A stretch of DNA of 17,394 nt, from assembly GCA_001799195.1 (NCBI GenBank), contig MGSU01000047.1, positions 1-17,394 on the forward strand, given 5' to 3'. Origin of the DNA: Deltaproteobacteria bacterium RIFOXYA12_FULL_61_11 (GTDB taxonomy: Bacteria > Bdellovibrionota_F > JAHFAK01 > YA12-FULL-61-11). Under the pieces are notes generated by a model, which saw only the letters and a program-made list of their open reading frames with translations, ran no database searches and had not been told where the DNA came from. Of this stretch, positions 5,252 to 7,639 are shown piece by piece. The position numbers and the translations under genes were made by a program. Numbering within the stretch: position 1 is the first letter of the stretch; every line of letters begins with the position of its first letter.

Positions 5252-5584
5252 TCAGTCGTCCTCTGCCAGGGTGACCTCATCGAGAAAACTGTCGAGCTCT
5301 TCCTCGTTGGAGAAGATATCCTCGAGGTCGGTGGAGACCTGAGATCTCCCGGAATCCGCGGTAGTCCAGGCTTCTTGGTGTTGACCAGCATGACGTTCGA
5401 GCTCTTGCTGGTGGAGTTGCGGAGCGAGGACCTGTTTGAGGTAGTCATCGAGCGTAAGGTCGTGGACCTTCGCCTCTTTGGTCTTGAGTTGCCGCCAATT
5501 CTTGATGTAGTGAAGCCGACAATAGCCGGCGACGATCTGCGCATCGTTGCAGTTCTGCTCCTTGCACAGCTCGATATTCACCAT
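5252..5584 (-). CDS. Small protein with Cys/His zinc-type motif and acidic tail
   Basis: This 110-residue protein has an N-terminal motif C7-x4-C12-x9-C22-x2-H25 (within ELCKEQNC and GYCRLHYIKNW), a spacing that fits a single zinc ion. A basic segment follows (RQLKTKEAK), then a Gln/His-rich helix and a strongly acidic C-terminus (about residues 87-110). Similar short motifs ending in GYCRLHY occur in small uncharacterised proteins of deltaproteobacteria and in some phage HNH-type proteins; no nuclease residues are visible here. The ATG at 5584 has CGAGG 5 bases upstream. It is the first gene of a probable minus-strand operon with the HDOD protein (51-base gap) and uvrA, which hints at a regulatory or nucleic-acid-linked role. 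The motif and context are seen; the function is not known. Confidence 0.7.
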   Translation of the reverse strand: MVNIELCKEQNCNDAQIVAGYCRLHYIKNWRQLKTKEAKVHDLTLDDYLKQVLAPQLHQQELERHAGQHQEAWTTADSGRSQVSTDLEDIFSNEEELDSFLDEVTLAEDD

Positions 5585-5645: not shown

Positions 5646-5762
5646 GATGCGCTGGGGTAATGAAACCCATGAAGTCAGGTTGCCAGTCGGACCTGGCCTT
5701 TCGAGGGACCAGGAGGTATGCTGCTGAGTAGCTTTGATTGGTTGATCCTCCGGAGGCTCCCG

Positions 5763-6854
5763 ATGCGAACAGGTCCACTCTTGTTCTTTCTTGTTGTTGT
5801 ATTATTACAATGTGTTGATACTGATTCAACGGTAACTACCGAGTTGGCCGACGAAAGTAATGATCTTGGTGAGGTCATCGAGAATGGTGACGTCAGCAAG
5901 GATACGCAGACTGCTACTGTCGAGGTTGAAGGAGACCCCTCCGCCGATCTGCCTGTCAACCCGGTGAGCAGCGAATTGGCAGGACACGAAGTACTCCTTG
6001 GTGATGCACGGCATGCGCCAGGTTATGGCAAGCCCCTTGAACATTGCGGTGGGTGCCACGGGGAAGTTCTCGAGGGTGGTCCCCATGCTATCCCTTCCTG
6101 TACCACCTGTCACGCCGAGGTTTGGAAAACGGGTGATCTCGATGTTTCCTCAGATCCTCAGGACGATCATGATCTTCTCTTCGGTGACGTGGGCCATCAT
6201 CCAGATGCCCAGCAGCCGGATCTTTCCTGTACCAGTTGCCACGGTGCGGATCTCCTCGGAGTTGAGGGGAAGGGTACGTCCTGCCAGTGGTGTCACGGGA
6301 TACTCTGGAATGGGACTACAAATGAGGCGTCAGAGGATCCGAGTATACAGGATGTGTCCGTGGATCCTCCGGTCGATCACGATCTCATGCGCGGAAATGT
6401 CGGTCACCAACGTGGGCTCACCGTTACGGTGTTGACCTGTGTCAAATGCCATGGGCGCGATCTCAAAGGGGGGGTTCACCGCGAACCTTCCTGCTATTCC
6501 TGTCATCAGGCTGTCTGGGAAGATGGCATGCAGGATGGCTTCCCGGAAGAGCCGGCGCATGATCAAGAACTCGGCGCGGTTCGGCACGCCGAGGGTTTCT
6601 CGACCCCGGCAGAACGCTGCAGCAGCTGTCATGGCAAGGATTTGGAGGGCGGTGAAGGGGGGCAGCCCGCTTGTTTCGACTGTCACGGCAACCATTGGTC
6701 CGAAAAACACGACCTGCGTTTAGAGGGCGTCGCACATGCCAGGGAACCTCGCCGAGCGAGCAGACGCTGCACTCCCTGTCATGGCGGGGACCTGAAGGGA
6801 GGAGAACATGAGGAACCCTCCTGTTTCAAATGTCATGGGATGAAGTGGCGATGA
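5763..6854 (+). CDS. Modular decaheme c-type cytochrome
   Basis: This 363-residue exported cytochrome has ten CxxCH heme-attachment motifs, at 95, 113, 156, 174, 226, 244, 286, 304, 336 and 354. They fall into five copies of one module. In every copy the spacing is identical: His, 9 residues on His, 11 on to the first heme Cys, 18 on to the second heme Cys, then CHG or CH and a Trp. Each module thus offers two heme sites and two extra histidines, enough for bis-His ligation of both hemes. Between the heme motifs runs a G-x-DL-x-GG stretch ending PSC or similar. Modules are joined by acidic linkers of about 23 down to 3 residues. The start at 5763 has GGAGG 6 bases upstream and gives a clean hydrophobic signal (LLFFLVVVLLQC); Cys17 is in a poor lipobox, with Gln at -1. 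A longer frame from 5718 has its ribosome site too close. The role is probably periplasmic or surface electron transfer; its partner is unknown. Confidence 0.9.
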   Translation: MRTGPLLFFLVVVLLQCVDTDSTVTTELADESNDLGEVIENGDVSKDTQTATVEVEGDPSADLPVNPVSSELAGHEVLLGDARHAPGYGKPLEHCGGCHGEVLEGGPHAIPSCTTCHAEVWKTGDLDVSSDPQDDHDLLFGDVGHHPDAQQPDLSCTSCHGADLLGVEGKGTSCQWCHGILWNGTTNEASEDPSIQDVSVDPPVDHDLMRGNVGHQRGLTVTVLTCVKCHGRDLKGGVHREPSCYSCHQAVWEDGMQDGFPEEPAHDQELGAVRHAEGFSTPAERCSSCHGKDLEGGEGGQPACFDCHGNHWSEKHDLRLEGVAHAREPRRASRRCTPCHGGDLKGGEHEEPSCFKCHGMKWR

Positions 6855-7027
6855 AACCTGCTCGAAGCAGGTTGCCAACCCCGCGGGAGCTTCGCCGTCT
6901 ATTCTTCTTGGATCCGTCGTGGACCTATCTCAATCACGGTTCTTTCGGAGCGTGCCCGCGCAAGGTCCTCTCCGTCGCCCAAGCCTGGCAGCGTGAGTTG
7001 GAAACAGCCGAGGGTTTGCAAATTTGA
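6851..7027 (+). pseudogene. Truncated class V aminotransferase remnant
   Basis: The 58-residue product contains ELRRLFFLDPSWTYLNHGSF and continues GACPRKVL, which is the typical N-terminus of class V PLP-dependent aminotransferases of the isopenicillin-N-epimerase type (pattern LDP, YLNHGSFGACP, P-x-VL). A full enzyme is near 380-400 residues and carries the PLP lysine around the middle; none of that is here. A TGA at 7025 ends the frame. The same frame then continues open for 20 codons (through RWRHFDADPDYRHHL) to a TAA at 7088, which could be further decayed coding sequence. The ATG at 6851 overlaps the TGA of the cytochrome gene (ATGA), so the intact ancestor was probably translated together with it. 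The N-terminal homology is a recognition by eye. Whether the short peptide is still made is unknown. Confidence 0.6.
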
Positions 7028-7147: not shown

Positions 7148-7165
7148 TCATGCACGGAGGTCCCA

Positions 7166-7639
7166 ATGCATCCGGCAATGCTTTTGGTTCTCATTTTCTT
7201 GCTCTCGTCGGGCTCGTCCTTCGCTTTCCTCGATTACCACCGACATTGTTTTCCAGACCCCAGTCAGGCTCGTTTGCATTGTCGGGATCTCCATTGGAAT
7301 TGCACCAGTCTTCCGGAGTTGCAGATCCTTGCGCAGTGCGAGGATGTCGAAGAGGTCGAATCTCGAGGTACTACGTATGCCTCGGTTCGGCGTGAGTATT
7401 GTTACCATGACACGTTCACGGTCTGCCGAAAGGATACCCCAAAGATGGAATCCAGTTGTTATAACACCGAAAGTGAAGCGGTTTCATCCTGTAAGGAGGT
7501 TCATTGGCGTTGTACAGAGTTGGATGAACATGCAATACTCGAAATATGTCGGGACCTCTTCAACGTCCGGAGCGAGCAATTCGGGACCTACCGTTCCTGC
7601 TACTCCTTGCGCTTCCATCGTTGCCTGGATCAGCGTTGA
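7166..7639 (+). CDS. Secreted twelve-cysteine protein with two duplicated modules
   Basis: This 157-residue protein has a clear signal peptide (hydrophobic AMLLVLIFLLSSG, likely cleavage after SFA at 20), so it acts outside the cytoplasm. The mature part holds 12 cysteines in two tandem six-cysteine modules: 28, 39, 46, 58, 79, 87 and 98, 109, 116, 128, 145, 153. Successive spacings are 11, 7, 12, 21, 8 in the first and 11, 7, 12, 17, 8 in the second. Shared signatures include CRDLHWNCT versus CKEVHWRCT, and a following L-x-IL or AIL helix ending in C-x-D. The even, paired pattern suggests three disulfides per module. I do not recognise the family. The start at 7166 is set by CGGAGG 5 bases upstream; an upstream in-frame codon at 7118 has no ribosome site. 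Two inverted repeats lie just upstream. It stands alone, with gaps on both sides. Confidence 0.8.
   Translation: MHPAMLLVLIFLLSSGSSFAFLDYHRHCFPDPSQARLHCRDLHWNCTSLPELQILAQCEDVEEVESRGTTYASVRREYCYHDTFTVCRKDTPKMESSCYNTESEAVSSCKEVHWRCTELDEHAILEICRDLFNVRSEQFGTYRSCYSLRFHRCLDQR

Follow-up and report, generated by a model that had tools for sequence, protein, structure and literature searches.

Five tandem diheme modules in a decaheme cytochrome, a probable lipoprotein with module relatives in many phyla

Two proteins of Geobacter sulfurreducens are the closest described systems for the cytochrome analyzed here. The dodecaheme periplasmic "nanowire" cytochrome GSU1996 is a single chain of four homologous tandem heme domains joined by short linkers, with heme gaps of 3–5 Å, and its isolated domains can be produced alone (PMC10138318). 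These domains are triheme and c7-like, each contains one Met-ligated heme, and the chain has a crescent shape. In PgcA the heme domains are joined by flexible linkers, and the tethered domains stretch to 18 nm and pass electrons between one another (PMC11520253). PgcA comprises three monoheme domains, two of them His-Met, connected by (PT)x linkers. We investigated a decaheme cytochrome gene in a 17,394-nucleotide stretch of DNA (the window, contig MGSU01000047.1) from Deltaproteobacteria bacterium RIFOXYA12_FULL_61_11. In contrast to GSU1996, its product strings together five beads, each with two hemes and two spare His, by long acidic linkers, and no GSU1996-type chain was found among the PDB sequence matches. 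It also differs from PgcA, as the beads are diheme and presumably bis-His ligated and the linkers are acidic rather than of the (PT)x type; tethered electron transfer is what we propose for it. On our best reading the protein would work in the manner of PgcA or GSU1996, without being a member of either type.

The reading frame at 5763–6854 is real and lies behind a good ribosome-binding site, which supports the start at 5763. The layout is as follows:

5752..5756, + strand: Shine-Dalgarno-like GGAGG, 6 nt upstream of the ATG at 5763, read from the sequence
5763..6854, + strand: decaheme cytochrome coding sequence, 363 aa plus stop
5763..5813, + strand: signal peptide with lipobox-like LLQC end, Cys17 being the presumed lipid anchor, from the alignment with tandem relatives
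5814..5984, + strand: acidic N-terminal linker by composition, 57 residues with 15 D/E and 1 K/R
5985..6125, + strand: diheme module 1 (H75-W121), by motif spacing
6126..6167, + strand: linker of 14 aa between modules 1 and 2
6168..6308, + strand: diheme module 2 (H136-W182), by motif spacing
6309..6377, + strand: linker of 23 aa between modules 2 and 3
6378..6518, + strand: diheme module 3 (H206-W252), by motif spacing
6519..6557, + strand: linker of 13 aa between modules 3 and 4
6558..6698, + strand: diheme module 4 (H266-W312), by motif spacing
6699..6707, + strand: linker of 3 aa between modules 4 and 5
6708..6848, + strand: diheme module 5 (H316-W362), by motif spacing

The protein contains ten CxxCH motifs, at residues 95/113, 156/174, 226/244, 286/304 and 336/354. 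An initial annotation of the locus had described five copies spaced H-(9)-H-(11)-C-(18)-C to the residue, and this is exact in all five: counted from the first motif, each copy has His at -20 and -11, CxxCH at 0 and +18, and a Trp at +26. This Trp, eight residues after the Cys of the second motif and likewise present in 5/5 copies, was missing from the initial list; it closes a module of 47 residues from first His to Trp. The linkers had been given as about 23 to 3 residues long and acidic. Measured from Trp to the first His of the following module the lengths stand, whereas acidity applies to the three long linkers (13–23 residues) and to the 57-residue stalk but not to the last linker. The net charge of the mature protein is -37. 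At its N-terminus Cys17 is invariant when tandem relatives are aligned with it; these relatives have canonical lipoboxes (SGC, AGC, SSC), while the LLQC of the window protein is atypical with Gln at -1. The decaheme protein is probably membrane-anchored, presumably via a lipid on Cys17.

We compared the protein with curated families and solved structures. It scores above the curated Pfam cut-offs for Cytochrome_C7 (PF14522, 46.8 vs 24.8 bits) and Cytochrom_CIII (PF02085, 32.4 vs 22.9 bits), a single window module alone scores under the cut-off. Both models cover the CxxCH stretches, and the H-9-H-11-C-18-C-8-W frame lies outside them; moreover the repeating unit of cytochromes c7/c3 carries three or four hemes, that of the window protein two. 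NCBIfam returned just far sub-threshold matches. A phmmer search of PDB sequences with the whole protein gave nothing meaningful, and module profiles matched only short CxxCHG stretches in the PDB (cytochrome bc1/cbb3 subunits, MtrF) and no whole module. AlphaFold2 modeled one module, using 52 sequences, with a pLDDT of 83, showing a short hairpin that spans both His and helices at both CxxCH motifs. Fold searches (Foldseek, VIA-align) with the 53-residue heme-free module model, a weak test at that size, gave no hit at E ≤ 0.001 or Z ≥ 2. The full-length model, built with 8 sequences, reached a pLDDT of 40.6 and a pTM of 0.24 and was discarded. A literature search found no paper on a repeating diheme module and no experimental data for a module of this type. 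The earlier remark that the protein was not recognised as a named family agrees with our searches of Pfam, NCBIfam and the PDB, in which no curated family or solved structure for the bead could be found beyond the generic c7/c3 models.

Conservation of the module was assessed in two ways. In an alignment of 52 modules from several phyla, a set chosen by profile, H4, H13, C24, C27, H28, G34, C42, C45, H46 and W50 are invariant. As a second test we collected modules from named loci by means of a pattern restricted to the heme half plus the Trp; two upstream His, 8–10 residues apart and mostly at -11 and -20, were present in 46 of the 47 modules obtained, a count that partly remains under selection since the loci had been confirmed by a whole-module query, the neighboring modules in the same proteins being unselected. 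His occurs at -11 in 34/47 and at -20 in 39/47 modules, as compared to 0–5 at nearly all other upstream positions, which excludes chance. Two spare His per two hemes, almost never absent, are what one expects of a pair of bis-His hemes. The suggestion that the extra His could serve in bis-His ligation is in line with this conservation, and such ligation of both hemes of each module is strongly supported. A second sub-type with a His spacing of 10 is common among diheme pairs.

We refer to an unnamed diheme module family, defined here by His at about -20, His at about -11, CxxCH at 0, CxxCH at +16 to +18 and Trp eight residues after the Cys of the second motif. The window protein fits this motif frame throughout.

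A profile built from the modules was run over 386 genomes. A whole-protein query against the genomes had found no relative, and a tighter module alignment was then used. Full-length modules were found in only a few of the lineages scanned, and a second, overlapping genome sample agrees with this. The only same-class genome in the comparison set gave no module match. In the named-genome scan two layouts were observed, stand-alone one-module lipoproteins and strings of two to six modules. The one-module lipoproteins are 76–92 aa long, and their mature part hardly exceeds the module; they occur in Calditrichaceae (Calditrichota, L050), Bacteroidales (L051/L055), other Bacteroidetes (L052), Neomarinimicrobiota (L053) and Ignavibacteria (L054). 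As such proteins exist, one bead suffices as a protein. A two-module string is found in Krumholzibacteriia (L062), and strings of three, four, five and six modules in Lambdaproteobacteria (L057-L059, L063, L081) and a related bin (L061/L064/L065). Large proteins also carry one or two modules, one of them (G043) together with choice-of-anchor-D domains. An eight-unit protein with 16 hemes (L003 279-1643, G026 contig 307) has a related but different frame, HG...CxxCHGxDxxGGxSGVSCxxCH...HP, in its tandem two-heme units.

Both the uncurated tandem lipoproteins of Lambdaproteobacteria (e.g. L063 and L081, 33–38% identity over aligned columns) and the single-bead lipoproteins (e.g. L051 and L053) share the module and, presumably, the Cys-anchored layout with the window protein. 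They differ in bead number, in their shorter linkers, which are nearly constant in length in the Lambdaproteobacterial strings, and in a Cys-Cys offset of usually 17 instead of 18. The decaheme protein is well conserved, not unique, and belongs among the tandem multiheme cytochromes. The idea that the module is peculiar to this gene was not borne out, since it occurs in many phyla; judged from this distribution it is an old unit, of which the window gene is one five-bead example.

The five copies are about 39% identical on average, as compared to 35–40% with modules of other phyla. Being no closer to one another than to the modules of other phyla, the copies are old, and a recent amplification was rejected on the same average identity. 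Of the proposed amplification of the module, what holds is that the copy number varies from 1 to 6 among relatives. The offset of 18, uniform in the window protein and a minority state among relatives, hints that the five copies share descent within one lineage, long ago. In a tree of the 52 modules, which is poorly resolved and has too few columns to date duplications, modules 1 and 4 group with a Krumholzibacteriia module, and a weak group unites modules 2, 3 and 5.

Our preferred reading, to which we assign a probability of about 60%, is that the protein is a secreted, lipid-anchored string of five autonomous, tethered diheme beads that carries electrons in the cell envelope. In each bead a β-hairpin would present two His, those at -20 and -11, for distal axial ligation of both c-hemes, which would be held by the CxxCH motifs following the hairpin, giving ten bis-His hemes in total. 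The acidic stalk and linkers would carry the beads. Electron passage would be fast inside a bead and also inside the closely joined pair 4–5, with other bead-to-bead transfer occurring by tethered encounters, and the string would move electrons between donors on the membrane side and other envelope cytochromes or acceptors. Three of the four linkers are 13–23 acidic residues long, and tethered beads are therefore favored over a rigid wire. The initial annotation had suggested a linear electron wire, unlike the compact fold of typical small multiheme cytochromes, and we treat both points as conjecture. Points against a tethered string are the missing electron-transfer operon nearby, the atypical LLQC and the three-residue linker 4–5.

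The last of these points, together with the tandem homologous heme domains as in GSU1996 (PMC10138318) and the short, nearly constant linkers of the Lambdaproteobacterial strings, would suit a rigid linear wire of five beads packed end to end with closely spaced hemes. Such packing is possible chiefly for beads 4 and 5; for the whole chain we regard it as unlikely, given three acidic linkers of unequal length, the strongly negative net charge and the lack of a whole-module sequence match or fold match to solved structures. The ten hemes on one anchored chain could instead serve chiefly as a charge buffer, periplasmic or at the cell surface, without a directed path. The window contains no adjacent partner genes, and a change in bead number, as seen among relatives, would simply raise or lower the capacity of such a store; single-bead forms would store little, however, and one relative is surrounded by genes for electron carriers of the b and c types, making a pure capacitor rather improbable. 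Still further down we place a role as part of a catalytic or terminal reductase, in which one heme or more would have an open coordination site. The genome does encode a reductive multiheme enzyme, NrfA, but every bead has two distal His without deviation and an extra catalytic domain is absent, so that this role seems very improbable.

More broadly, we make a tentative proposal, which we consider somewhat less probable than its opposite: that the bis-His diheme bead of 47 residues folds by itself and serves as a portable electron-transfer domain of unsolved fold, used in many phyla alone or in tunable numbers on lipid-anchored tethers, forming a tethered-diffusion carrier from multiheme instead of monoheme beads. 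Should the bead fold on its own, the lipoproteins with a single bead would offer a very small natural diheme unit for structure solution. Natural proteins with one to six beads would then show how electron-transfer rate and reach scale with bead number and linker length, and the module would serve as a marker by which to recognise, in uncultured phyla, electron-transfer lipoproteins that current family libraries class only as 'cytochrome c7'.

The genome encodes c-type cytochrome assembly proteins in addition to NrfA. Neither COX1 or another heme-copper oxidase nor an MtrB_PioB porin, as part of an MtrB-type porin-cytochrome conduit, was detected in the genome, which is 87% complete and gives such absences, e.g. 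of the oxidase, little weight; the host bacterium is apparently anaerobic. Contig 83 of the same genome (L048 1-12042) contains a large multiheme cytochrome cluster. This cluster includes a 993-aa frame with 23 hemes and repeats of the H-10-H type, a 1318-aa frame with 15 hemes, and proteins with 7–9 hemes. In a Lambdaproteobacterium (L057) the genes after a four-bead relative encode a c554-like pentaheme protein, a b561-type cytochrome and a 13-heme cytochrome; a dihaem cytochrome c and a two-component system are also encoded close by. Genome content and this gene run point to envelope electron transfer.

In the window itself the cytochrome gene has TatA, UvrA, an HDOD protein and a fatty-acid degradation cluster as neighbors, and no electron-transfer operon is found among them. 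A frame at 6851-7027 (+) overlaps the cytochrome stop (ATGA) and ends after 58 aa. Its product is similar to the N-terminal part of PLP-dependent C-S lyases, Egt2 among them (E 7e-4). The frame appears to be what is left of a truncated gene, and no other copies were found in the genome. At 7163-7639 (+) lies a gene without Pfam match whose product is secreted, rich in Cys and made of two halves that resemble each other (DLHWNCTSLPE / EVHWRCTELDE). A small protein, also without Pfam match, is encoded at 5252-5584 (-), divergent from the cytochrome gene, and carries a CxxxxCxxxxxxxGYCRLHYIKNWR motif.
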